DNA of 64,000 nucleotides from NCBI RefSeq assembly GCF_000153185.1, contig NZ_CH724149.1, forward strand, positions 1,004,071-1,068,070, read 5' to 3'. The notes below the pieces were generated by a model, which worked only from the letters and a program-made list of their open reading frames with translations, made no database searches and was not told the origin of the DNA. Shown piece by piece: positions 19,665 to 50,079 of this stretch (its first letter is position 1; each line of letters opens with the position of its first letter). This stretch comes from Reinekea blandensis MED297. Lineage in GTDB: Bacteria; Pseudomonadota; Gammaproteobacteria; Pseudomonadales; Natronospirillaceae. The translations under genes were made by a program, and so were the position numbers.

Positions 19665-21113
19665 TTACAGGATATTACCGACACTTACAATCTTAAATGT
19701 ATTTGAGCCGCCATGAACACCTTGGTGATCGCCATACGCGAGAATCACCAGATCACCATCGCGGACAATACCCCGACGCTTCACTTCGTCTACGGCCAGT
19801 TTGTTAATTTGGTTCAGCGGTTCGCTGGTGTCATCAAAGCCAATGGCTTCCACACCACGGTAAAGTGAGACGCGTCGTTGAGTAGCCGCATGGCGGGTTA
19901 ACGCGTAGATCGGCAGCCCCGAACTGATGCGCGACATCCATTTGGGTGTCGAACCGGATTCGGTCATGCACAGTATGGCTTTAACGCCACGCAGATGGTT
20001 CGCCGCATACATCACCGACATGGCCATGGCCTCGTCGATGCGCTTAAACTCCGATCCGATTCGGTGCTTCGATTCGGTCGTCAATTTATGTTTTTCAGCC
20101 CCGAGACAGATGTCGCTCATGGTTTTGACGGTTTCAATCGGGTACTGGCCGGCGGCCGTTTCCGCAGAACACATGATGGCATCGGTGCCATCGAGAACCG
20201 CATTCGCAACGTCAAAGACTTCTGCACGTGTTGGGAACGGGTTGGCAATCATCGATTCCATCATCTGAGTGGCCGTGATGACAATTTTGTCGAGGCTTCG
20301 GGCACGTTTGATGATGTGCTTTTGGACACCAATCAGTTCAGGGTCTCCAATCTCAACCCCCAGATCGCCACGAGCGACCATGACAACGTCGGAAGCCAGA
20401 ATGATTCGGTCAAGATTATCGTGATCCAGTACCGCCTCGGCACGTTCGAGTTTTGCGACCAGCTCAGCGGTCGAACCGGCAGCGCGCAACAGTTCACGAG
20501 CCTGGTGCATGTCCTCAGCGCTTCTTGGGAACGACACAGCGACATAATCCACGCCGATGTCTGCAGCAATACGAATGTCTTCTTTATCTTTGGGGGTCAG
20601 CGCCGCCGCCGAAAGTCCGCCGCCGAGCTTGTTGATCCCTTTGTTGTTTGATAACACACCACCTTGAGTGACGGTCGTGTTGACGGCATTGCCTTCAACG
20701 GAGTCTACCGTCACCCGAACCCGGCCATCATCGAGCAGGTATACGTCACCCGGTTTACTGTCCTTGGCCAGCTCCGGGTAGTCGATGCCCACGCGTTCTG
20801 CAGTGCCGGAGGCTTTGTCAAAATCAACGTCCAGGACAAACGACTGACCATCCTGAAGTTCAACCTTGGCGTTGTCCTTGAAGCGCGCGATACGAATTTT
20901 GGGACCTTGCAGGTCGGCAAGGATGGCGACCGGAGGTAATCCCAGGCGTTCGGTAATTTCTCGCACGGCTTCTGCCCGTCGCCGGTGATCGGCGGCGTCT
21001 CCATGGGAGAAGTTAAGCCGGACGGTATTAGCACCGGCGAGAATCAGTTCTTCCAATACGCCGGGCCGGTCAGTGGCCGGGCCCAGAGTCGTAACAATTT
21101 TGGTTCTTCTCAT
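19665..21113 (-). CDS. pyk: Pyruvate kinase
   Basis: Transfers phosphate from phosphoenolpyruvate to ADP, the last step of glycolysis and of the Entner-Doudoroff path. Visible motifs are [13 protein letters not shown] at the start, [17 protein letters not shown], the catalytic-loop region [17 protein letters not shown] and A-T-Q-M-M-E-S-M. 482 residues from ATG at 21113; a TTG two codons upstream is less likely. Transcribed in the same direction as hexR but separated from it by a terminator. Confidence 0.97.
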
Positions 21114-21198
21114 GGTCAACCTGTGTGTTCATTAGGGTGGCGTTACTGTTTTGGGCTTCAGTCGGAGCCGAAACCCTTTTAGGGCGGACTGAAACAAT

Positions 21199-21219
21199 AA
21201 AAGCCCGTGGCGGGCTTTT
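21199..21219 (-). terminator. Rho-independent terminator of hexR
   Basis: AAAAGCCCG-TGG-CGGGCTTTT is a perfect 9-bp stem with a 3-nt loop, followed on the minus strand by ATTGTTTC. It lies 11 bp beyond the hexR stop and separates hexR from pyk. Confidence 0.85.
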
Positions 21220-21229
21220 ATGTCAGTTG

Positions 21230-22090
21230 CTACTCGTTGTTGCTGGTACTGAATCGCATTTCGGACAGTACCGACTTTATCCGCTTCAAATGGCTTTGAA
21301 ACTCAGGGCCGAGTTTCAGTGTAACTCCCGTTGCCAGAACGTCCAGTATCGTCAGATACACAATTCTGGATGTCATATTAATATAGATGTCGGTGTTTTC
21401 CTGGCTGTCCACACCCAACAGAATATGGCAGTTCTCCGATAGAGGAGAGTGAGGTGTTGTCAACGCGATCACCGTTGCCCCGGATTCTCTGGCAATTTTG
21501 GCGGTTTCTACCAGCGAAATGGTACGTCCGGTGATGGAAATGATGACCACTACGTCGCCCGGCTTTGCGGCAGCGGCGGCCATGCGCTGTTGTAAGGCAT
21601 CAGTGTAGGCCGCGCAGGGCGTATTCAGTCGGAAGAACTTATGGTGAGCATCCATAGCGACACTGCCGGAGGCGCCCAGACCGTAAAAGCCGATTCGCCG
21701 AGCCTGCGACAGGGCGTCTACGGTTCGGCTCAGCGCATTGACATCAATGGAGCGCTTGGCGTCACTAACCGCACTCATCGTGGCTTCAAAAATTTTGCTG
21801 GTGTAATCCTCAACCCGGTCGTTCGGTTCAACATTGCGGTTGACGTAAGGCGTGCCGGTAGCCAGACACTGTGCGAGTTTGAGTTTGAAATCCGGAAAGC
21901 CGGTGCATTCAAGGCTGCGACAGAAGCGATTAACCGTGGGTTCTGAAACGTCAGCGGCCTTGGCAAGACTGGCAATCGATGAGCGGATCGCTTTGTTTGG
22001 ATCGTTCAGTATCACCTGAGCAACCTTACGTTCACTCTTGCTCAGGCAGCTGGGGTTGGACTTTAAACGATCTAAAATGTTGGTGCTCAT
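21230..22090 (-). CDS. hexR: HexR, RpiR-family regulator of sugar catabolism
   Basis: HexR represses (sometimes activates) central carbohydrate genes and is released from DNA by 2-keto-3-deoxy-6-phosphogluconate in the bacteria where it was studied. The 286-residue protein has an N-terminal RpiR helix-turn-helix (residues 1-77; V-S-E-P-T-V-N-R-F-C-R-S-L) and a C-terminal SIS sugar-phosphate domain (about 120-250; F-Y-G-L-G-A-S-G-S-V and I-S-I-T-G-R-T). Context between pyk and glk supports the name. A weak HexR-like site lies 39 bp upstream, so autoregulation is possible. Confidence 0.93.
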   Translation of the reverse strand: MSTNILDRLKSNPSCLSKSERKVAQVILNDPNKAIRSSIASLAKAADVSEPTVNRFCRSLECTGFPDFKLKLAQCLATGTPYVNRNVEPNDRVEDYTSKIFEATMSAVSDAKRSIDVNALSRTVDALSQARRIGFYGLGASGSVAMDAHHKFFRLNTPCAAYTDALQQRMAAAAAKPGDVVVIISITGRTISLVETAKIARESGATVIALTTPHSPLSENCHILLGVDSQENTDIYINMTSRIVYLTILDVLATGVTLKLGPEFQSHLKRIKSVLSEMRFSTSNNE

Positions 22091-22128
22091 TGTGATTTTT
22101 TTCCAGAATAGTGTCGTTGCGTTGAGAT

Positions 22129-22143
22129 TGTAGGAAATTCACA
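22129..22143. promoter_or_regulatory. Weak HexR-like palindrome before hexR
   Basis: TGTAGGAAATTCACA resembles the TGTAATnnnATTACA consensus reported for Shewanella and enteric HexR only at its outer arms (TGTA and ACA). It may be an autoregulatory site. It is the weakest of the set. Confidence 0.3.
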
Positions 22144-22324
22144 ACTCAACGGTAAAGTGATCTGGCTTAACTTATTGACAGATTTCTCGGCGATTCGCCC
22201 CCGGTAGAGACTCTATCCCGGTCGGGGCTAATCCTCAGATCAGCTAAGATCTTGAAAGTGACGCAGTTTTAAGGCTGATTCAACCTCAATTCCAACCCTT
22301 ACCGTCTCTTGGTTTTGTCTTTTT

Positions 22325-22339
22325 TGTAGTAAAGTTACT
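22325..22339. promoter_or_regulatory. HexR-like box upstream of glk
   Basis: TGTAGTAAAGTTACT fits TGTARTnnnAYTACA in 13 of 15 positions and lies in the 456-bp gap between divergent hexR and glk, in an AT-rich stretch likely to hold the promoter. The remaining gap (22340-22546) is an untranslated leader of glk with no recognised riboswitch. Confidence 0.6.
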
Positions 22340-22546
22340 CAATAATAAAGCTTCAACCGGAAAAATCATCCTAAATGTCAGAATATTTCCCGGTGCGGCG
22401 GTGTGGGTCCGGTTCATTTGATCCGTAGCAAGCTCCGGTTTCCGCTGGCGCGGCATTATGCGAACCGATGGTCGGTGACTGGACGCTTTCGGGACCCGGT
22501 ACTAGAACGCAACAACAATAGTTAAAAAGTTATGAGGACATCAATC

Positions 22547-23545
22547 ATGGAACAGCTCGGGTTAATTGCAGACATTGGTGGTACGAATGCCCGCTTCGCC
22601 CTGACACCCATTCGCACCATTGCGCCGGGTGAGGCGCTCAAGTTAACGGAGGCCGATCTGATTGCTCCGACCGCTCTGAACGGTGCGGAGTACGCTAACA
22701 TTGCGGATGCGATCGAAGCCTATCTGGCCGGCCCTGCGGCAGACTATCCGCGTCCTGAACACTCAGTCATGGCGATTGCCTGTCCGACTGATCAGGATCA
22801 GATCACCATGACGAACCACACCTGGTCGTTCAAAGTGTCCGAACTGAAGGCGACACTGGGATTCAAAACACTCACCTTTATTAACGATTACAATGCGCTC
22901 GCCAATGCGATTCCTCAACTGGATGATGATGGCTTGATTAAGATCGGTCGTGGTGAGCCGGTGGTCGGTATGCCGATTGCTGTGACCGGACCGGGTACCG
23001 GGCTTGGACTTGCGGCATTGGCGTTCAACGATAATGAACCGGTCACCCTGGAAACCGAAGGTGGACATGCTCACTTCGCACCCACCGATGAGACTGAAAT
23101 CGGGATCTTACAGTACCTGCTGACCAAACATGATCGGGTATCCAATGAGCGTTTGATTTCCGGAATGGGTCTGGAAAACATCTACCGTGCATTGTCTTCA
23201 ATGGCTGGCGAAGAAAAAGCGTTGTCCGCGCCGGAGATTTCCAAGGCCGCACTTGATGGCAGCGATGAACTTTGCGGTGCGGCGTTAGCTCGCTTTTGCG
23301 CCATTTTGGGGAGCTATGCCGGTGATGTGGCCCTGACGCTGGGCGCAAAAGGCGGCGTTTTCATTACCGGCGGAATCGTGCCGAGGTTCATTGAGTACTT
23401 TAAATCCAGTGAGTTCAGAGCTCGGTTCGAAGATAAGGCTCGACTGGCCGGGTTTGTGCAACTCATTCCCACCTATGTCGTGGTTTCACAGCAACCGGGT
23501 CTACTTGGCTCAGCGGCTGTGCTGAATCATCGCTTGAACCATTAA
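22547..23545 (+). CDS. glk: Glucokinase
   Basis: Phosphorylates glucose with ATP (proteobacterial Glk family, Pfam PF02685). The 332-residue protein opens with the phosphate-1 motif L-I-A-D-I-G-G-T-N-A-R-F. It then has F-I-N-D-Y-N-A-L-A, the phosphate-2 motif V-T-G-P-G-T-G-L-G and the T-E-G-G-H-A-H-F substrate segment. I chose the ATG at 22547, preceded by GAGGA at 8 nt, over an in-frame ATG at 22532. First gene of the glk - phosphorylase-kinase-like - malQ row; a HexR-like box lies upstream. Confidence 0.95.
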   Translation: MEQLGLIADIGGTNARFALTPIRTIAPGEALKLTEADLIAPTALNGAEYANIADAIEAYLAGPAADYPRPEHSVMAIACPTDQDQITMTNHTWSFKVSELKATLGFKTLTFINDYNALANAIPQLDDDGLIKIGRGEPVVGMPIAVTGPGTGLGLAALAFNDNEPVTLETEGGHAHFAPTDETEIGILQYLLTKHDRVSNERLISGMGLENIYRALSSMAGEEKALSAPEISKAALDGSDELCGAALARFCAILGSYAGDVALTLGAKGGVFITGGIVPRFIEYFKSSEFRARFEDKARLAGFVQLIPTYVVVSQQPGLLGSAAVLNHRLNH

Positions 23546-23606
23546 TTGTTATCCGTTTCTTCGCAGCCGATGAACGGCTGCGAAACCCAATCCCTTAGGA
23601 ATATCC

Positions 23607-26600
23607 ATGTCCCGCAGTGAAATCGAGACCCTCACGACCGAACTGGATCAGTGGTACGAGCTGACCGAGCAAACCATTCTCTGCCGACAGGATCCGGTGT
23701 CCGGATTATTTCCTGCCAGCACCGATGTCAATGGTCATGGCGACTACACCGATGCCTGGGTCCGGGACAATGTGTATTCCATCATGGCTGTCTGGGGGTT
23801 ATGGGTCGGGTATCAGAAGTTTGATCATTTTCCATCACGCACCCAGCGCTTAGCTGACAGTGTGCATCGGCTGATGCGCGGACTGCTGACTGCCATGATG
23901 CGGCAGACGCATAAGGTCGAGCGATTCAAATACACACAAAACCCTCTGGATGCTCTGCATGCTAAATACGACACACAATCCGGTGAGGTTGTCGTAGACG
24001 ACGATAAATGGGGGCATCTGCAGTTGGACGCAACCTCATTGTTCCTGCTGATGCTGGCCCAAATGTCCCGGTCCGGTTTGTCCATTGTTTCACAACCTGA
24101 TGAAGTCAGCTTTGTGCAGAATCTGGTGTGGTATATCGGACGCGGGTATCGCACGCCGGACTATGGCATTTGGGAGCGTGGCAACAAAATCAACAACGGG
24201 CGGGTGGAGATTAATGCGTCATCCGTTGGCATGGTGAAAGCCGCACTGCAGGCGATGCAGGGTCTTAATCTGTTACCCGATAGCGAGGGGCAGATCGGCA
24301 CCATTCATGTCATGGACGATGAGATTGCCCGCTGTCGTTCGACGTTGGAAAGCTTATTGCCACGTGAATCCCTGTCTAAAGAAGTCGACGCAGCCTGTCT
24401 CTCGATCATCGGTTTTCCGGCGTTTGCCGTTGAGAAAACCGAGGTCATTGAGCAGACCCGCGCGCGGGTGCTGGATAAGTTAGCCGGACCCTACGGTTGT
24501 GCTCGCTTTTTACGCGATGGCCATCAGACCGTATTGGAAGATCATGATCGGTTGCATTACGAAAGTCATGAACTGCAGAATTTCGAAAACATCGAATCAC
24601 AATGGCCATTGTTTTATGCCTTTTTGTATCTGGATGCGTTGTTTCGTGTCGATCAGGACGAGATTCGACATTATCGGGCGTTGCTGGATGGTTTACGTGT
24701 CGAAAAAGATGGCCTGATGCTGTTGCCGGAACTGTATTTTGTGGATGCGGAACACATTGAGGCCGAGAAGGCCGCGCCGGGTTCGCAGCCACGACGAGCC
24801 AACAATAATGTGCCATTGGTCTGGACTCAGTCTCTGTATACCCTGGGTTGCCTGCTGGATGCCGGGGTTCTGTCCCCTTCGGACATTGACCCGATCAACA
24901 GTTTTGCCCGAATCGGAAAACAACCGGTCACCAACATCGGTCTGACGATTTTAGCCGAGGATGCGGACGTTCAGCGTGCGCTGGCTGAGCAGGGGGTTGA
25001 GTCCTGTCTGTCACGTGATATTGAACCGATTCGTGTCTTTGATGCCACCGAACTGAGTCGGGTGTTTCACGCCGTCGGTCAGAACCCGAAGCTCGGGTTG
25101 ACCGGTCGACCCCAGCGGAACCCGAGAGTGTTGGCAACCTCTCAACTGTATCGACTGTCTGGGGAAACGGTGGTATTCCTGCCGCAGTTCAGCAATCGCG
25201 ATCGGTTTTATCTTGCCAGTGACAACGCGCTGTTGTGCGAACTGTTGCAGTCGGAGCTTGCGTACATTTCCCGCCATTGGCAATCACCAAAAGATCCGGT
25301 CATGGTTCTGGATATTACACATGCGATGCTGTCGGCTGATGACTCGGTTCGGTTAACGCAGTTGCTCAGCGATATTCAGAATAATCGACTTTCCGGTCTG
25401 CAGTCCCGAAGCGTCCATGTTCTTGAGCAGCTGAACGAGCTGGCGATGGAGCAGATCGACGACTTACGGGACTATCAATTACCGCCTCACGGATTGGTCA
25501 TCGGAGGGCGCCGCCGTAAATGGTTGGCTTTTGATGAACAGGTGACGGTCAGTTCAGCGGAGTCAGTTCTGTCGTTACTGCAGCCGGACTGGACGACTGA
25601 GCAACTTGTTGCGACGTTGGCGCAATCGGCGAACCCTTATCAGCAGGTGGATTGCCTGGCCCGCCTAAAAGAACGTTATGGGTTGGATTTCGAAACCGGA
25701 TTGGCGCCATTAGTCAGTGTGCGGTTGTTGTCGACTGAGCTGTATGAAACCGCAACCGAGCATCAACTGTGGAGCGTCATGCGACATTGTGCGGGACTGT
25801 TGGACAAACACTGGAGTGGGTTGGAAGACAGCGTCGCCGAAATTCTTACCCGTCAGCGGATCATTGTCGTTGGGCGGGCCTTTTCTGATCAGGGGATGAT
25901 AACTACACCGCTGCAGAATCGAGAGATCCTACAGCTGATTCGCCAAAACACCGCACGCGATCCCCGAGAGGGCATTCTCAATCAGGAAATCCTGATTATG
26001 ATTGCCTCCTTAATGCGAGGTGAACCCGAACTGTTGAGCGGTATGAAAAGCATCCGTCCGGGGCATCTGGCCATGTTGATGATGGGGCAGCTTGCACACG
26101 AACGCTCGGTCGAGCCGGATGTGGCGTTTGCTGAACTGACCGCGCTATGCCCGTCTGACATTGAATCGCGTGTCCGGCGGATTCTGTCTGACTACCAATC
26201 TGAAGTTGATCGTCTGTTCAATACTGAGTCACTGCATGCACAACAAAGTCTCGTGACGCTTGATGCGTCTACCCAGGAGTCCTCTACTCTGAACGGGGCG
26301 CATAACTGGTTGCAATGGCGTGAGCAGCAAGGCGTTATGCCACGGCTTCAGGATGATTTTTACGAACAACTTTGGCGTCTACTTAAGCAATGCCGTGGCG
26401 TTGTCGTTGGCGATCGTTTCGACTCGCGCAGTCGTATTGAGTCTGACCACATACTCAGTGCCATGACCGCGGGCGAGCCCCAGTTTGCGTTGCTCATTGA
26501 GCGACTGTTAAACAAAATTGAATCACCGTCTTATCGCCAGATGACGATTGAAGCCCTCCGCGCCATCATGGCGTTAGCGCAGGCCAATCCGCAGTTAAGG

Positions 26601-26840
26601 GTGGACGATTATCTGATCGTGGAAGTGATCATTTCCCACGCGGTTCGCTTGAACTGGATTGAAAACTTTCCTGCTCGGGCTAGCCACTACAACCAGTTTC
26701 GTGGGCAGGCCTGGCAAGCCTTTTATCAGAACCCGCCGCAGCGAGTGGCCAGTCGGATTGGCGAAGCACTGAACTACCTGTTGCAGCAGGGACGTCAGGA
26801 GCAGCTGTCCGATGGTGGGTTGGGCGAGCCGGTTCATTGA
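23607..26840 (+). CDS. Phosphorylase b kinase alpha/beta-subunit homologue (GH15-like domain plus KPBB C-terminal domain)
   Basis: Homologous along most of its 1077 residues to the regulatory alpha/beta subunits of eukaryotic glycogen phosphorylase kinase. Shared blocks include D-A-W-V-R-D-N-V-Y-S (49-58), W-G-H-L-Q-L-D-A-T-S-L-F-L-L (135-148), Y-G-I-W-E-R-G (186-192), F-P-A-F-A-V-E, Y-G-C-A-R-F-L-R-D-G and Y-C-A/H-C-A-G-type segments in the C-terminal half. Residues 30-450 form the glucoamylase-like barrel; Glu190 falls near the GH15 general acid. No kinase domain, calmodulin partner or C-terminal prenylation cysteine is present. It has no signal peptide, so it is cytoplasmic. It sits between glk and malQ, suggesting a role in maltodextrin or glycogen use, as enzyme or regulator. 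Function unproven. Confidence 0.85.
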   Translation: MSRSEIETLTTELDQWYELTEQTILCRQDPVSGLFPASTDVNGHGDYTDAWVRDNVYSIMAVWGLWVGYQKFDHFPSRTQRLADSVHRLMRGLLTAMMRQTHKVERFKYTQNPLDALHAKYDTQSGEVVVDDDKWGHLQLDATSLFLLMLAQMSRSGLSIVSQPDEVSFVQNLVWYIGRGYRTPDYGIWERGNKINNGRVEINASSVGMVKAALQAMQGLNLLPDSEGQIGTIHVMDDEIARCRSTLESLLPRESLSKEVDAACLSIIGFPAFAVEKTEVIEQTRARVLDKLAGPYGCARFLRDGHQTVLEDHDRLHYESHELQNFENIESQWPLFYAFLYLDALFRVDQDEIRHYRALLDGLRVEKDGLMLLPELYFVDAEHIEAEKAAPGSQPRRANNNVPLVWTQSLYTLGCLLDAGVLSPSDIDPINSFARIGKQPVTNIGLTILAEDADVQRALAEQGVESCLSRDIEPIRVFDATELSRVFHAVGQNPKLGLTGRPQRNPRVLATSQLYRLSGETVVFLPQFSNRDRFYLASDNALLCELLQSELAYISRHWQSPKDPVMVLDITHAMLSADDSVRLTQLLSDIQNNRLSGLQSRSVHVLEQLNELAMEQIDDLRDYQLPPHGLVIGGRRRKWLAFDEQVTVSSAESVLSLLQPDWTTEQLVATLAQSANPYQQVDCLARLKERYGLDFETGLAPLVSVRLLSTELYETATEHQLWSVMRHCAGLLDKHWSGLEDSVAEILTRQRIIVVGRAFSDQGMITTPLQNREILQLIRQNTARDPREGILNQEILIMIASLMRGEPELLSGMKSIRPGHLAMLMMGQLAHERSVEPDVAFAELTALCPSDIESRVRRILSDYQSEVDRLFNTESLHAQQSLVTLDASTQESSTLNGAHNWLQWREQQGVMPRLQDDFYEQLWRLLKQCRGVVVGDRFDSRSRIESDHILSAMTAGEPQFALLIERLLNKIESPSYRQMTIEALRAIMALAQANPQLRVDDYLIVEVIISHAVRLNWIENFPARASHYNQFRGQAWQAFYQNPPQRVASRIGEALNYLLQQGRQEQLSDGGLGEPVH

Positions 26841-26926
26841 TCGTTAACTGAGCAGTGTAAGATTTTTTGTCTGGGATTACGAAGGTCTGGGTCTATTCAC
26901 CTGTGCAGTGAGGACCATTGCGCCCA

Positions 26927-26948
26927 GAGGGTGGAACTTTCCACCCTC
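26927..26948. repeat. Perfect 9-bp hairpin between the kinase-like gene and malQ
   Basis: GAGGGTGGA-ACTT-TCCACCCTC. There is no T-run on either side, so this is not a standard terminator. A second hairpin ATGCGT-CTAA-ACGCAT (26980-26995) follows. The 241-bp gap suggests that malQ has its own promoter or a processing site here. Confidence 0.4.
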
Positions 26949-27081
26949 CCTAAAATCCTTCCTGCACCGGCTTTTTCCAATGCGTCTAAACGCATGGGCT
27001 CCACTACACTGTGCGGTAATGTAAAGATTCATAAACTGGTGATCAGGTTTGCGTCTGGTCGAAACGTTAAAGGGGTTCTAA

Positions 27082-29277
27082 ATGGCGAACTATGAGCTGT
27101 CGTCTAAAGTCGCTCATCTGAGGAAGATATCGCGAAGCTTCATCGACTATCTTGGTCGTGAGGCTGAAGTGCCTTTCGAAAACATTGAATTGATCCTCCG
27201 GGCCATGGGATACGATCTGGATAATGACGATCAACTGGGACACGACGCCTGGGCACTGGATACACATCAGTGGCATGTTTTGCTGGAGCCGATTACGGTT
27301 CTGTCGCCATTGCGGGATTACTGGGGCGTTAACCTCTATGTCACCACTGAGGAACTCTGGCAGGCCGGGACCTGGGTCATTACCACCGAAACCGGTGACA
27401 AGATTGAAGGCCAGTTTAATCTGGATTTCTTGACGCAGACCGGTGATTACTGGATGGGTGAAACCCAGCATGTTCGCCGTATTCTGCCGCTGCCTAAAAC
27501 CTTGCCGCTCGGCTATCACCAACTGACCGTCACGGTAGGCGAGCGTCAGATGTCGGCACCGCTGATCTGTACGCCGAAAACCAGTTATCACAACGCACCG
27601 ATGACCCGTGGTGATAAAACCTGGGGAACCGCCATTCAGCTTTATACCTTGCGCTCTGAACGTAACTGGGGCATGGGTGACTTTTCTGATCTGGCACAGT
27701 TGATCCGGGATATGTCGGCGCAAGGTGCCGATGTGATCGGTTTGAACCCGATTCATGCGTTGTATCCAATCAGCCCGGAGCATTGCAGTCCTTACAGTCC
27801 TTCCAACCGCAGTTTTTTGAATGTGCTTTATACGGATGTCGAGGCTGTTCCGGAGTTTCAGGAATCGCCGGCGTTGAAGCGCAAAGTAGGCAGTAAAACG
27901 TTTGCAGCCCGGGTCGAGCAGCTCAGGGCGACCGACGACGTGCATTATCCGGGTGTCAGCGCGCTGAAGTTTGAATGCTTTGAAATGCTGTATTCAGTGT
28001 TCAGAAAGAACCATCTTAATCAGGGCACTGAACGGGATCAGGCGTTTAAAGCCTTTATTGAAGAGCAGGGCGAGCCACTTTACAACCAGGCATTGTTTGA
28101 CGCTTTGCTGGCTCACTTCAAGGCTCAGGATATCAATGCCTGGGGTTGGCCGGTTTGGCCGGAAGCCTATCAGGATCACAAATCTGAAGCCGTGGCGCAG
28201 TTCGCCAGTGACAATCCGGATGCCATCCATTATTGGATGTATCTGCAGTTTATTGCGGACGAACAGTTGCAAAACATTCACCAGCTCTGTCAGGAGCTGG
28301 GCATGAAGATTGGCCTGTATCGCGATCTGGCGGTCGGCGCCGATCGCGGTGGTGCGGAAGTGTGGGGGAATCGCGAGAGTTTCTGTCTCGATGCCGCCGT
28401 TGGTGCACCGCCCGATGCCTTAGGGCCGAATGGCCAGAACTGGGGGCTGCCGCCACTGGACCCGGTGAAGCTCAAGCATGAAGGTTATGAGACCTTTATA
28501 ACCCTCTTGCGCAATAACATGCGAGGCTGCGGTGCCTTACGCATCGACCATGCGCTTGGCTTGCTCCGCTTGTGGTGGTGTCCGCCGGGTAAAAGTGCGG
28601 CTTTCGGCGCTTACGTGTACAACGACCTCTTCGACATGCTGGGTATTTTGAACCTCGAGTCTCAGCGGAATGAATGTATGGTCATTGCCGAAGACCTCGG
28701 AACCGTTCCGGAAGAGGTGACCCGGTATTTCCCGGAAGCCGAGCTGTACTCGAACAAGGTGTTTTATTTTGAAATCGGGGAGCAGGGCTGTACCGAACCT
28801 CAGGATTACGCTGAAAAAGCGCTCGCCATCGTCTGTAACCATGACATGCCGACCGTGGTGGCTTACTGGAACAAGAGTGATCTGGATCTTCGCCGCCAAC
28901 TGAACATGTTTGCCAGCGATGATGATTATTTCAGTGAATGCGCGGCCCGTGAAAAAGCCAAAGGACTGATTCTTGAGGCGCTGAAACGCCATGGCCGTCT
29001 GCCCGTCGGATTATCGACGAATCCGGATGATCTGCAGGAGATGACACAGGGCCTTTGTTTTGCGATTCACGAGCATCTCGCGGCCAGCCGCTCGCAGATT
29101 ATCGCGGTGCAGCTGGAAGATATGATGTTGATTAACAAACCGGTCAATATCCCCGGAACCAGCGATGAGTATCCGAACTGGCGCCGGAAGTTGAACGAAA
29201 GCAGCAAAACGCTGTTCAAGCGCGAGGATATCCAGGCTTTCTGTCAAAGCATCAATCGCGTGCGCCAGTCGGTGTGA
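27082..29277 (+). CDS. malQ: 4-alpha-glucanotransferase (amylomaltase)
   Basis: MalQ disproportionates maltodextrins, releasing glucose and longer chains for phosphorylase. The 731-residue protein is a GH77 enzyme with an N-terminal extension of about 150 residues of the type seen in enteric MalQ. The GH77 signatures W-G-M-G-D-F-S-D-L, G-L-N-P-I-H-A-L, L-R-I-D-H-A-L-G (nucleophile Asp) and I-A-E-D-L-G-T-V-P (acid/base Glu) are visible. AAGGGG precedes the ATG. Glucose released here is the substrate of glk at the start of the row. Confidence 0.96.
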   Translation: MANYELSSKVAHLRKISRSFIDYLGREAEVPFENIELILRAMGYDLDNDDQLGHDAWALDTHQWHVLLEPITVLSPLRDYWGVNLYVTTEELWQAGTWVITTETGDKIEGQFNLDFLTQTGDYWMGETQHVRRILPLPKTLPLGYHQLTVTVGERQMSAPLICTPKTSYHNAPMTRGDKTWGTAIQLYTLRSERNWGMGDFSDLAQLIRDMSAQGADVIGLNPIHALYPISPEHCSPYSPSNRSFLNVLYTDVEAVPEFQESPALKRKVGSKTFAARVEQLRATDDVHYPGVSALKFECFEMLYSVFRKNHLNQGTERDQAFKAFIEEQGEPLYNQALFDALLAHFKAQDINAWGWPVWPEAYQDHKSEAVAQFASDNPDAIHYWMYLQFIADEQLQNIHQLCQELGMKIGLYRDLAVGADRGGAEVWGNRESFCLDAAVGAPPDALGPNGQNWGLPPLDPVKLKHEGYETFITLLRNNMRGCGALRIDHALGLLRLWWCPPGKSAAFGAYVYNDLFDMLGILNLESQRNECMVIAEDLGTVPEEVTRYFPEAELYSNKVFYFEIGEQGCTEPQDYAEKALAIVCNHDMPTVVAYWNKSDLDLRRQLNMFASDDDYFSECAAREKAKGLILEALKRHGRLPVGLSTNPDDLQEMTQGLCFAIHEHLAASRSQIIAVQLEDMMLINKPVNIPGTSDEYPNWRRKLNESSKTLFKREDIQAFCQSINRVRQSV

Positions 29278-29387
29278 AAACCGACGGGTTGAACCGTTGA
29301 ATGCAAATATGGAAAAGTCCGGCGTTTAGCCGGATTTTCACTTATACGGCCTGATGTATGTCATCTGAACCGAATTTTCACTGGACA

Positions 29388-29412
29388 TTGGTTGCATAAT
29401 TACGCGTATAAT
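29388..29412 (+). promoter_or_regulatory. Candidate promoter of the sugar ABC ATPase gene
   Basis: A perfect TATAAT at 29407-29412 is preceded by TGGACA with a long 19-bp spacer. The HexR-like box begins about 25 bp beyond the expected transcription start, a position suited to repression. Confidence 0.5.
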
Positions 29413-29443
29413 GCAGGTGATCGACTGATTTCCAGAGTAGAGC

Positions 29444-29458
29444 TGTAATAAAACTACA
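29444..29458. promoter_or_regulatory. HexR-like box upstream of the sugar ABC ATPase gene
   Basis: TGTAATAAAACTACA matches TGTAATnnnATTACA with a single change in the second arm. It is the best HexR-like site in the window and is placed just downstream of the TATAAT promoter. Confidence 0.65.
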
Positions 29459-29470
29459 ACTGCAGCAGGA

Positions 29471-29502
29471 CAGATGAAAAGACCCTGAAAGGGCGACATC
29501 TG
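29471..29502 (+). other. Nested stem-loop in the leader of the ABC ATPase mRNA
   Basis: CAGATG (29471-29476) pairs with CATCTG (29497-29502) and encloses a second stem CCCT-GAA-AGGG (29483-29493). The predicted leader is about 145 nt and ends with a 9-codon frame (29543-29572) that overlaps the ATPase start. It does not match a riboswitch class I know. Confidence 0.4.
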
Positions 29503-29564
29503 AAGGTCCCGTGACTGAGGTTTCGGGGTTTAAGTTACGATTATGACTAAACGAGTGGAAGCGA

Positions 29565-30659
29565 ATGGCTAGTATTAAGTTCGATAAAGTTATTAAAAGC
29601 TATGGTGATGTGAATATCATCAAAGGTCTTGACCTGGATATCCAGGACAAGGAATTCATGGTTCTGGTTGGCCCATCAGGCTGTGGTAAATCCACCACGC
29701 TGCGCATGATTGCCGGCCTCGAAGAAATTACCGACGGTAAACTCTATATCGGCGATCGCGTGGTTAACACCGTTCACCCGAAAGACCGCGATGTGGCCAT
29801 GGTGTTCCAGAGTTATGCTCTGTATCCGCACATGACGGTTTATGAAAACATCGCTTTCGGCCTGCGCCTGCGCAAGATGGCCAAAGACGAGATTGATCGT
29901 TTGGTAACGGAAGCTGCTGAGACTCTGGGTCTGGCTCATCTGTTGGATCGTAAGCCGAAAGCACTGTCCGGTGGTCAGCGTCAGCGTGTAGCCCTGGGTC
30001 GAGCCATTGTACGTAAGCCTTCGGTCTTCCTGTTTGACGAACCGTTGTCAAACCTTGATGCCGAGTTGCGTGTTCAAATGCGTGCGGAAATTGCAAACCT
30101 GCAGAAACGTCTGGGAATTACCTCCGTTTACGTGACGCACGACCAGGTCGAAGCGATGACCATGGGTGACCGGATTGCTGTATTGCATGACGGTGAGCTG
30201 CGTCAGGTCGGTTCTCCTCTGGATCTGTATGACTCGCCAGCCAACGTTTTTGTGGCTCAGTTCATCGGTACGCCGAACATGAACGTGGTGAAAATGACGA
30301 TCTCTGACGATGGTCAGCAGCTGGTACACCCGGATATCACCATTGCGACTCCAGCTCAGTGGAAAGAAGGCATCGATGCGCGTAAGGGCAAAGAAGTCTT
30401 TGTTGGTTTCCGTCCAGAACATGTCCGCGAAGCGGAAGAGCATGAATGGACAAATACCGCTGATATTTCTGGTGTTGTTAAGATTGTTGAAACACTGGGT
30501 CACGAAGTGGTTGTGCACATGGCTCTGGATCATGAGCAGAAAGAGTTCATCGCGAAGATGGACGTGCATAAGACGCCTCAGATTGGCAGCACCATTAATC
30601 TGCACATCAATACCGACAAGTTGCACATCTTTGACGGTGAAACTCAGGAACGTCTGTAA
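29565..30659 (+). CDS. ugpC: Sugar ABC transporter ATPase (UgpC/MalK/MsmX type), orphan
   Basis: A CUT1-type ABC ATPase that powers uptake of oligosaccharides or glycerol-3-phosphate. The 364 residues show Walker A G-P-S-G-C-G-K-S-T-T (37-46), the Q-loop, signature L-S-G-G-Q-R-Q-R, Walker B V-F-L-F-D-E-P-L-S-N-L-D, and a C-terminal TOBE/regulatory domain. No permease or binding-protein gene is adjacent, so it may serve several importers, as MsmX does in Bacillus. GGAAG precedes the ATG. The upstream HexR-like box and following terminator make it a separate transcription unit. Confidence 0.9.
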   Translation: MASIKFDKVIKSYGDVNIIKGLDLDIQDKEFMVLVGPSGCGKSTTLRMIAGLEEITDGKLYIGDRVVNTVHPKDRDVAMVFQSYALYPHMTVYENIAFGLRLRKMAKDEIDRLVTEAAETLGLAHLLDRKPKALSGGQRQRVALGRAIVRKPSVFLFDEPLSNLDAELRVQMRAEIANLQKRLGITSVYVTHDQVEAMTMGDRIAVLHDGELRQVGSPLDLYDSPANVFVAQFIGTPNMNVVKMTISDDGQQLVHPDITIATPAQWKEGIDARKGKEVFVGFRPEHVREAEEHEWTNTADISGVVKIVETLGHEVVVHMALDHEQKEFIAKMDVHKTPQIGSTINLHINTDKLHIFDGETQERL

Positions 30660-30677
30660 ACTTAGGGCGTTACCGTT

Positions 30678-30704
30678 AAAAGCCGGCTTTATGCCGGCTT
30701 TTTT
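30678..30704 (+). terminator. Rho-independent terminator of the ABC ATPase gene
   Basis: AAAGCCGGC (30679-30687) and GCCGGCTTT (30693-30701) form a perfect stem, followed by further T residues. It lies 19 bp after the stop codon. Confidence 0.9.
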
Positions 30705-30805
30705 GTGCGCGCGATCAGCTCGAGTGGTAAAAAACTGAGAAATACCCATCGGTATTTATGGTTGCCGCCGTTACACTAGTCGGATTGTAAATTAATGAGT
30801 CAGCT

Positions 30806-32035
30806 ATGAAATTTCAGATTGCTTCTCCGAGTCACTATTTCACCGATTTGCGTCTTCCCTGGTCGCGTCATTTAAATGAATGGCCGGAAGAATACTTTGT
30901 CGAAGTAGCCCGCGGTATTCACCGCAATGTGGTTAAGTTTATTTCGCACAGAGATCAGGTGTATGCGTTAAAAGAGCTGGCGACACCGATTGCTCAAAAA
31001 GAGTATCGCGTGTTACGAGAGTTGGAAGAGCTCGGATTGCCGGTGGTGGAACCGGTTGGGTTGGTGACTCATCGGGATGAAAACGTCGGTGCGGCGCAAA
31101 AAGACCGGAACGATGACGCGATGAGCATGGAAAACCGCGGCTTATTGATAACGAACTACATGGTCGGTGCGCTGCCATATCGGATCATTATCCAGCAGGG
31201 ATTTCCAAAGAGCAGATGTACCAGATGCTGGATGCCTTGGCTGAGCTGTTAGTGCGCTTCACTTATCCGGTTTTACTGGGGGGACTGTTCCTTTTCCAAC
31301 GCCTTGTTCCGCCGTGATGCCGGACTGATGGCCGCTTACCTGGTGGATGCCGAAACCGGTGAGTTATTGGACGATTTGACGGATCACCGCCGAGAGTTTG
31401 ATCTGGAACTGGCGCACACCAATATCGCCGGGGATTTGATGGACCTTGATGCCTCTGTGGGATTGCCAGGACAACTGGATCCTATTGATCTGGCAGATTC
31501 ATTGTTAGTTCGATATGAAAATCTCTGGGCAGAACTGACCCGTTCGGATGTGTTTGATCCTGAAGATCAGTATCTGATCGAAAAACGCATCGGTCGATTG
31601 AATGAACTGGGATTTGACGTTGAAGAAATGGAAATTACCACCGTTGATAATGGTAAGCAGGTTAAGATGGTGCCGCGGGTGGTGGAACATTGGCATCACA
31701 AACGTCGTTTGGCTTCTTTGACAGGGCTGCAGGTTCAGGAAAACCAGGCGCGTCGTCTGTTAAACAGCCTTAACCGCTATCGCATTATCCTTTCTGAACA
31801 AGAAGGACGTGATGTGCCACTGCCAGTCGCCGCCTACCGATGGATTTCAGAGGTGTTTAACCCGTCAGTACAGATTATCCCTCATGATTTGAAGGGTGGG
31901 CTGGACGACGCCGAACTCTTCCACGAGATTCTTGAGCATCGATGGTATCTCAGTGAAGAACGCCACCAGGATGTGGGGATGCCCTATGCCGCCCAGTCCT
32001 ATGTCGATAATGTCCTGCGTCAACGTCATCACTGA
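30806..32035 (+). pseudogene. DUF4032 protein (lipopolysaccharide-kinase-like), frame broken by three apparent 1-base deletions
   Basis: Two open stretches in the same frame (30806-31252 and 31304-32035) together give a DUF4032 protein, a kinase-like family of unknown role. Between them the expected protein can be read only by adding one base at each of three points. These are in the GGG near 31200 (restores G-I-S-K-E-Q-M-Y-Q), at C/TT near 31257 (restores L-V-R-L-H-L), and in the TTTT run near 31274 (restores G-F-Y-W-G-D-C-S). Each gap sits in or next to a short homopolymer and the three sum to one codon. Either the gene is newly dead or the read has clustered errors. The C-terminal DUF4032 part is intact. 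Confidence 0.8.
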
Positions 32036-32043
32036 CCTGAACA

Positions 32044-32931
32044 TCAGGCTGGAAATGGCAGGTCTGCCAGCGATGCATTCAAGGTTGGGTATTGGAACTC
32101 ATACCCGAGTTTGAGCAAATGGCTGGGCGCGGCCTTTTGGCCATCGATCAGCAGCGTTTTCATTTCACCCAAGGGGTAGAACACAAAACGCGGTAAGGGA
32201 ATGGGGATGGCAACCGGACGATTTGCCACTAACGTCTTACTAAAGCCAGCCTGTCGCTCCGGTTCCGGAGCCGTCAGATTGAAGGTGCCGCGGGCGTGTT
32301 TTTCAATGATGAACTCAAGGGCACAGAGCCAATCCCGGTAATCAATCCAGGACAGCCATTGTTGTCCGTCGCCAAAGACCATACGCATCCCGCATCGGGT
32401 TGGCAGTCGAAAGGGTTCCAGAAACCCTCCGGTTTTGGATAAGACTAGACCGGTACGGACGATGGTGACGATAGCCCCCAGCTTTTCAGCGGTCTTAGCT
32501 GCCTGTTCCCAATCGGCGCACAGTCGGGCGCTGAAATCGTCACCGGCAGGTTGATCCTCGTGGCAGTCTTCTTCGGTAGCGCCATAATAACCAATGGCTG
32601 ATCCTGAAATGAAATGGTCGCAAGTAATGCCTTGTTGGTGTAACGCGCCAATCAGATGCTCGGTCAACCCGATTCTTGATTCACGCAGGCGGGATTTGTA
32701 ACCCCGGGTCCATGGTCGCCCCATGATGGGCAGGCCGGCCAGGTTCACGACCAGGTGCAAATGCTGGCTGATGTCAGCCACTTCAGCAGGGTCGTTGATC
32801 ACGACATCGGTGTCGGGTCTGTGCTGATGCGCCAGTCCAATGACTGTGTAACCCCGGTTTTTCAGTACCGGGATGAGTTGCGTGCCCAACAGCCCTGACG
32901 CGCCGGTGACCAGTGCATAACGTTTTGACAT
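32044..32931 (-). CDS. TIGR01777 family NAD-dependent epimerase-like protein (YfcH)
   Basis: An extended short-chain dehydrogenase-like protein of 295 residues with the dinucleotide motif G-A-S-G-L-L-G-T-Q-L (10-19). The catalytic-type S-A-x-G-Y-Y-G (S-G-S-A-I-G-Y-Y-G) and the C-terminal DUF1731 segment L-x-x-G-Y-x-F-x-Y-P complete the family pattern. Substrate is unknown; the E. coli homologue is YfcH. Convergent with the broken DUF4032 gene, with only 8 bp between stops. Confidence 0.9.
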   Translation of the reverse strand: MSKRYALVTGASGLLGTQLIPVLKNRGYTVIGLAHQHRPDTDVVINDPAEVADISQHLHLVVNLAGLPIMGRPWTRGYKSRLRESRIGLTEHLIGALHQQGITCDHFISGSAIGYYGATEEDCHEDQPAGDDFSARLCADWEQAAKTAEKLGAIVTIVRTGLVLSKTGGFLEPFRLPTRCGMRMVFGDGQQWLSWIDYRDWLCALEFIIEKHARGTFNLTAPEPERQAGFSKTLVANRPVAIPIPLPRFVFYPLGEMKTLLIDGQKAAPSHLLKLGYEFQYPTLNASLADLPFPA

Positions 32932-33003
32932 TGAAATTCTCCTGTTTGCACATACCTATACGGGCCTGACGGCAAATTATCTCAATAGTAAGGCTATATC
33001 GAT

Positions 33004-48948: not shown

Positions 48949-49039
48949 TGTAGTTTACTTTCATATATTTACTTGATTCAGGGCAATTAAAGGCGGGTAA
49001 CCGGTTGACCTTTGGCGGTAATTTTGTAATTTTACTACG
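48949..49039 (+). promoter_or_regulatory. gapA control region: promoter and HexR-like boxes
   Basis: TTGACC (49005-49010), a 16-bp spacer and TAATTT (49027-49032) form a candidate promoter. TGTAATTTTACTACG (49025-49039) overlaps the -10 element and differs from TGTAATnnnATTACA at two positions. TGTAGTTTACTTTCA (48949-48963) is a second, similar-quality candidate upstream. HexR control of gap genes is known in other gammaproteobacteria. Confidence 0.5.
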
Positions 49040-49050
49040 TAACAGCTTAA

Positions 49051-50079
<1,029 letters not shown>

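Follow-up and report, generated by a model that had tools for sequence, protein, structure and literature searches.

Animal phosphorylase kinase (PHK) has alpha and beta subunits (PHKA and PHKB) that regulate a kinase acting on glycogen phosphorylase. Glucoamylase-like domains in these subunits were reportedly described in a 2003 paper, and the relation of PHK to glycoside hydrolase family 15 (GH15) was already known. According to a structure paper (PMC10978961), Glu185 and Glu371 of PHKA form the catalytic pair, Lys588 and Tyr593 dock the gamma kinase, and further study of the glucoamylase-like domains is needed to establish their physiological significance. Here we analyzed a 64,000-nucleotide stretch (the window) of Reinekea blandensis MED297 (GCF_000153185.1, NZ_CH724149.1, positions 1,004,071 to 1,068,070, forward strand), in which the gene at 23607-26840 encodes a protein of the PHK alpha/beta (KPBB) family. 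This protein is probably an intracellular, catalytically active glucoamylase-type member of the family that would feed glucokinase, and not a kinase regulator. What we propose as new is the case for bacterial members as complete glucoamylases coupled to glucokinase; an open-access literature search, judged by titles and abstract openings, found no paper on a bacterial PHK alpha/beta homolog.

A bacterial homolog of the PHK alpha and beta subunits

The KPBB gene (23607-26840, forward strand) is one uninterrupted frame with an ATG start and encodes 1,077 residues, exactly as given in the preliminary description of the window, while the opposite strand is full of stops in the one frame read. Pfam analysis revealed GH15 at residues 17-817 (235.8 bits, cut-off 22; 1.1e-69), followed by the C-terminal domain KPBB_C (PF19292) at residues 832-1065 (26100-26801, forward strand; 303.8 bits, cut-off 27; 8.7e-91). 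When PDB sequences were searched with phmmer up to E = 10, only PHKA (661.7 bits, 1.6e-197) and PHKB (503 bits, 1.4e-149) were found. A profile of 28 relatives gave 1079 bits with PHKA and 882 bits with PHKB, plus one further match at chance level (E 0.19). The similarity to PHK alpha and beta thus far exceeds chance. The window protein has the same domain order as PHKA and PHKB and a similar fold along the full length, and over residues 1-600 it is 45.7% identical to PHKA and 36.8% to PHKB. In line with the preliminary description, the four PHK-like motifs quoted there are all present in the translation and the homology extends over both halves. The KPBB_C match in the Pfam profile search contradicts the opposite case considered there, an ordinary GH15 protein lacking this domain.

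The AlphaFold model of the whole protein had a mean predicted local distance difference test score (pLDDT) of 81 and a predicted template modeling (TM) score of 0.78. With this model, the top eight Foldseek matches were PHK alpha or beta chains (TM score to query, 0.66-0.70; root mean square deviation, 13.8-14.9 Å), followed by one short PHK entry; the remaining matches were not significant. Since the deviation is about 14 Å, the domains match those of PHK, but their relative placing is uncertain. The N-terminal GH15-like domain (residues about 17-435; 23655-24911, forward strand) was delimited by invariant positions and by a separate model of residues 1-440 (pLDDT 78). The best match of the latter was PHK D1 (TM score to query, 0.78-0.84). 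Next came the glycosidases 7c25, 7c24, and 5z3a-d (E 6.4e-8 to 2.5e-7), with TM scores to target of 0.66-0.68 for 7c25 and 5z3a-d and 17-18% sequence identity for 5z3a and 7c25, which are labeled "Glycosidase" and which we take to be isomaltose glucohydrolase. Fungal glucoamylases and dextran dextrinase matched more weakly (E 3e-3 and weaker).

In the model, residues 1-440 form the (alpha/alpha)6 barrel of GH15, the fold common to the bacterial glucoamylase TtGA (1LF6), 5z3a/7c25, and the fungal enzymes. In contrast to these ordinary GH15 enzymes, to which its sequence identity is very low, the window protein has about 640 additional C-terminal residues, including KPBB_C. No credible whole-domain match emerged when profiles were compared with those of three ordinary GH15 proteins; residues were mapped to TtGA by a MAFFT L-INS-i alignment together with the fold match.

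Predicted active site

Conservation was analyzed in a set of 111 bacterial sequences that comprised the window protein, 10 members of its family, one further locus (L023), 78 of the best 80 loci from an alignment-based scan of genome contigs, and 21 sequences from later surveys. This sample is weighted to cyanobacteria (75/111). Residues Y47, W51, R53, D54, W135, Q139, D141, W189, E190, E375, and W406 were invariant. In the alignment, Y47, W51, R53, D54, W135, and Q139 fall on Y337, W341, R343, D344, W390, and Q394 of TtGA, and D141, W189, E190, R300, E375, and W406 on D396, W437, E438, R575, E636, and W654; Trp390 served as the anchor for the TtGA numbering, with which the residues at positions 337, 344, 438, 635, 636, and 637 agreed. 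Glu438 is presumably the general acid of TtGA. Accordingly placed are the predicted general acid Glu190 (codon at 24174-24176; PHKA Glu185) and the predicted general base Glu375 (24729-24731; PHKA Glu371), both on the forward strand and both supported by alignment and invariance. The codon of Tyr47, which aligns with Tyr337, lies at 23745-23747 (forward strand). As described in PMC12446779, Tyr337 of TtGA hydrogen-bonds the general-base carboxylate, Asp344 is part of a water network, and Trp390, the counterpart of W135, is common to alpha-1,4-specific glucoamylases.

As judged from the alignment, the window protein thus has both catalytic Glu residues together with all aligned -1 subsite residues of GH15 glucoamylases. 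An active glucan hydrolase was the first option named in the preliminary description, which pointed to Glu190; the second Glu at the place of the base adds to this prediction. Furthermore, 92 of the 106 positions that are invariant in the bacterial copies fall within residues 1-435.

PHKA keeps the equivalents of W51, R53, D54, W135, Q139, D141, W189, E190, E375, and W406, so it has both catalytic Glu residues in common with the window protein. At the Tyr47 position, however, it has Gln, in a loop that is six residues shorter, and H44, G45, E254, and H306, which are invariant in the bacterial copies, are altered or missing. PHKB has Lys at W51, Gln at R53, Tyr at W135, Asn at D141, and Lys at E375, the last change removing the base. 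Within residues 1-600, PHKA departs from 10 and PHKB from 28 of the 95 invariant positions. We propose that Y47 and the related changes are the reason why PHK showed no glucoamylase activity, whereas its bacterial relatives may have it.

Linkage to glucokinase and the glycogen pathway

The gene order in the window is hexR (reverse strand), glk, the KPBB gene, malQ, an ABC transporter ATPase gene, and a DUF4032 gene. The glucokinase gene glk (22532-23545, forward strand; PF02685, 344.5 bits; TIGR00749 above cut-off) is directly upstream and the 4-alpha-glucanotransferase (GH77) gene malQ (27082-29277, forward strand; PF02446, 389.1 bits; TIGR00217 above cut-off) directly downstream of the KPBB gene, in line with the sugar operon named in the preliminary description. 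The next gene encodes a sugar transporter ATPase of the UgpC/MalK type (29565-30659, forward strand; NF008653, 490.9 bits, above cut-off). Divergent from glk is hexR, encoding an RpiR-type repressor of glucose genes (21230-22090, reverse strand; NF008451, 413.4 bits, cut-off 296). This glk-malQ setting also distinguishes the window gene from that of PHKA.

In all 11 loci of the window's family, glk was found on the same strand within 1.5 kb of the KPBB gene. In Pseudomonadota as a whole, 18 of 32 loci, in 6 of 13 labeled families, had a glucokinase gene no more than 1.5 kb away, in an upstream, downstream, or divergent position; outside the window's family this applied to 7 of 21 loci. Five of these seven glucokinases were confirmed by Pfam, while L141 (a fragment) and L146 were detected by BLAST only; one family (f163) was counted as linked because of a single locus among its three, and that locus is a fragment at the end of a contig. 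Four more Pseudomonadota loci, from families f26, f103, and f274, had glgB, glgX, or malQ within 4 kb. The chance of glk linkage in 5 of 13 families was below 1e-9 by a rough binomial estimate, which presupposes 3,500 genes and no more than three glk copies and treats the families as independent, although they are not fully so. A gene of about 210 codons beside glk in many loci was taken, by size and place, as putative eda.

Seven regions were also taken from the ten KPBB-negative genomes of the family. In five of them (L117 to L121), glk, malQ, the ABC ATPase gene, and the DUF4032 gene stand in a row; L116 also lacks malQ, and in L122 the DUF4032 gene is in a different setting. Since the row can be intact without it, the KPBB gene is an optional module in this sugar operon. 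Its linkage to glk is repeated and its presence patchy. In another class of the same phylum, an rpiR-type regulator gene, glgB, glgX, malQ, and a 983-codon KPBB gene were observed in one row on one strand (L167:7665-17382).

Glycogen synthase was matched in all 12 KPBB_C genomes of a survey of 57 relatives, and in each of these genomes the KPBB gene was the only GH15 match. Full-length glycogen phosphorylase was found in 10/10 KPBB-negative genomes of the family versus 7/12 KPBB-positive ones (which include the truncated G014); in the latter, the match was weak in G007 and G008, and none was detected in G009, G014, and G016. The association is weak (P = 0.03 to 0.14). In profile searches, G009 (a single contig) and G016 gave neither a PF00343 (phosphorylase) nor a PF02446 (MalQ) match, and both have glycogen synthase and keep the KPBB gene near glk; G009 also keeps GlgB and GlgX. 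This pattern fits an exo-hydrolase that may stand in for phosphorylase, in work that other glucosidases could share.

Proposed function and alternative explanations

According to our proposal, the KPBB protein would be a cytoplasmic, inverting GH15 exo-hydrolase with predicted alpha-1,4 specificity, which takes glucose off maltodextrins or glycogen at their non-reducing ends. The freed glucose would be phosphorylated by the neighboring glucokinase, and the resulting glucose phosphate would enter the Entner-Doudoroff pathway under HexR control. The enzyme would act beside, or in place of, glycogen phosphorylase and MalQ and would be no part of a phosphorylase kinase.

Several observations weigh against this proposal. 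The active-site loops are modeled with low confidence, both in the whole model (pLDDT below 50 at residues 40-46, 188-196, and 303-316) and in that of residues 1-440 (41-44, 131-137, and 304-319). The residue after the base is Leu, versus Gln in TtGA (PMC12446779). Human PHKA keeps both Glu residues and yet showed no glucoamylase activity in the assay described in PMC10978961. Linkage is also incomplete: in 10 of the 32 Pseudomonadota loci (among them L144, which extends for only 374 bases to one side), glk, glgB, glgX, and malQ are all absent from the neighborhood, and glk was near the KPBB gene in 0/75 cyanobacterial and 0/4 Lentisphaera-class loci. Counting the weak G007 and G008 matches as present weakens the phosphorylase association from P = 0.03 to P = 0.14. 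Finally, G009 carries other GH13 glucosidase-like genes, and the window's own genome has glycogen phosphorylase, MalQ, and 16 PF00128 matches, so that the KPBB enzyme would not be the sole route.

The absence of detected activity in PHKA despite its Glu pair also suits another explanation, in which the protein senses glucan or acts as a scaffold: maltodextrin or glycogen would be bound in the GH15 pocket but left uncut, and the C-terminal domains, a large conserved region with no known catalytic role, would hold Glk, MalQ, or other proteins. Binding alone, though possible with such a site, does not need the acid, the base, the base-positioning Tyr, and the water-network Asp, which are kept in 111/111 copies. 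Moreover, variation is greater in the remainder, with 14 of the 106 invariant positions after residue 435, and the gene partners differ among families. MalQ is dispensable to the arrangement, as it was undetected in G009 and G016. The sensor or Glk/MalQ scaffold offered in the preliminary description is less supported than hydrolysis, and we consider it unlikely.

A third explanation retains catalysis and changes its outcome: as in dextran dextrinase, the protein would be a transglucosylase that remodels maltodextrins or glycogen ends. PMC12446779 describes a GH15-like enzyme that acts as a retaining transglucosylase, and the structure of that enzyme (9ju0) is among the weak matches to the model of residues 1-440 (E 0.015). 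However, the residue before the base is Pro (P374) in 110/111 bacterial copies, as in the inverting AgGD and KfIG, whereas in the retaining cluster a Gly-Glu dyad occupies this place (PMC12446779). Glucokinase linkage, too, points to free glucose, and transglucosylation appears very unlikely to us.

It is still harder to see the protein, as in animals, as the regulatory subunit of a kinase whose target is glycogen phosphorylase or some other enzyme of glycogen metabolism. Candidate kinases do occur near some KPBB genes. In three of four Lentisphaera-class loci, a PknB-like Ser/Thr kinase gene is directly upstream (L038:6858-7802, L163:11394-12338, and L164:11612-12556); the L163 and L164 kinases are 96-97% identical to that of L038, and the fourth locus, L046, has none. 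This adjacency represents one lineage and may be due to chance. In one gammaproteobacterial genome, a gene for a large Pkinase and AAA_16 protein with TPR matches (L136:11514-14813) is divergent from the KPBB-glk pair. BLAST with the Lentisphaera and L136 kinases detected no others within 1.5 kb of the KPBB loci, except for one weak match of 21.9 bits near L112.

The preliminary description had stated that gamma kinase and calmodulin are absent here. Pfam scans of seven window proteins revealed no Hanks-type kinase, gamma kinase, or calmodulin, a genome-wide search for kinases or calmodulin not having been made, but the DUF4032 protein encoded further along the row is kinase-like: the N-terminal half of its intact relative (L013:13987-15216, 409 residues) matches Kdo kinase (5.3e-9) and APH (2.7e-5). 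DUF4032 was rejected as a dedicated partner kinase, because it is present in 7/7 genomes of the genus, five of which lack KPBB (KPBB, 2/7). G009 and G016 have no detected phosphorylase to regulate. At the gamma-docking positions (PHKA Lys588 and Tyr593), the window protein has Asp and Arg, and the 111 bacterial copies have Lys in 3 and Tyr in 1, in a region that aligns with gaps. The animal subunits end in a CaaX farnesylation motif, which also has no counterpart, since none of the 111 copies has a Cys four residues from the end. Taken together, regulation of a kinase is highly improbable, and hydrolysis coupled to glucokinase remains the explanation that we prefer.

Distribution and relation to animal PHK

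The KPBB family is not rare in bacteria. The alignment-based scan of genome contigs gave at least 585 confirmed stretches, and of the best 80, which were kept, 75 were cyanobacterial; the 80 also include Saccharospirillum sp. MSK14-1 and a Gynuella metagenome-assembled genome. Single-protein patterns found no relative in the contig scan, while the alignment-based scan succeeded. KPBB_C was present in 12/57 relatives, 14/369 genomes of the class, and 8/398 of the phylum, as well as in 4/78 genomes of the class to which the Lentisphaera genome G797 belongs; each count includes its center genome, and the surveys partly overlap.

Cyanobacterial KPBB proteins, such as L066 of Calothrix sp. PCC 7716 and L039, have the same domains, a similar length, and the same active site as the window protein, to which they are 46-48% identical. 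Their genes differ in setting: none of the 75 loci, some on short contigs, had glk, glgB, glgX, or malQ as a neighbor. In residues 1-600, the mean identity of PHKA was 54.6% to the 75 cyanobacterial copies, 49.4% to L038 and L046, and 45.7% to the window protein. In a 53-row tree, rooted at the midpoint only, PHKA and PHKB, both on long branches, fell on the cyanobacterial side with support of 93/97, just under the program's starred level. By these comparisons, the window protein appears to be a cousin of PHK and not its nearest bacterial relative, the cyanobacterial copies being closer. The earlier suggestion that it represents the ancestral function of the PHK subunits is still plausible, but not as that of their closest relative.

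A broader scenario is possible, though we hold it to be doubtful. The bacterial proteins would be active glucoamylases and form, with glucokinase, a hydrolytic glycogen route able to replace phosphorylase. The animal PHK regulatory subunits would descend from such an enzyme, acquired from a lineage close to cyanobacteria, and would have become inactive when PHKA lost the loop with the base-positioning Tyr and PHKB, in addition, the base. The coupling of kinase and glucoamylase would perhaps be bacterial in origin (Lentisphaera). A bacterial relative with a fuller active site near glucokinase makes the question of the PHK glucoamylase-like domains accessible to ordinary enzymology: did the ancestor hydrolyze glucans, and has an enzyme become a regulator through the loss of a single loop that carried the Tyr? 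If true, our proposal would also provide a candidate role for many cyanobacterial KPBB genes, which have no described function in open-access titles and abstract openings.

Other features of the window

A pattern scan for HexR-type sites used a presumed 15-base HexR box. It yielded 10 matches (1.39 expected) from six places, four of which were read on both strands, and none of 100 shuffles reached as many. One candidate box with two mismatches lies upstream of glk and the KPBB gene (22325-22339), and another, an exact match, upstream of the ABC ATPase gene (29444-29458). According to PMC5489143, the Pseudomonas HexR consensus is shorter and another regulator, RccR, has a very similar 15-base site, so that the candidate boxes may bind HexR or a different regulator. 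Matches in a promoter and terminator scan were no more than shuffles give, and Rfam gave no match in 20000-33000.

Two other origins were considered and rejected: no PADLOC match pointed to defense, and only two weak plasmid matches were found (23-24% identity over 31% of the query). The DUF4032 gene (30806-32035, forward strand; two open reading frames [ORFs], PF13224, three-frame reading) is apparently frameshifted in the assembly. Its frame is lost near 31200 and regained shortly after, with a stop between, while the relative in L013 is intact; either an assembly error or a decayed gene would account for this. A further HexR-type palindrome, with one mismatch, was detected at 49025-49039, just upstream of the ORF at 49084-50079.

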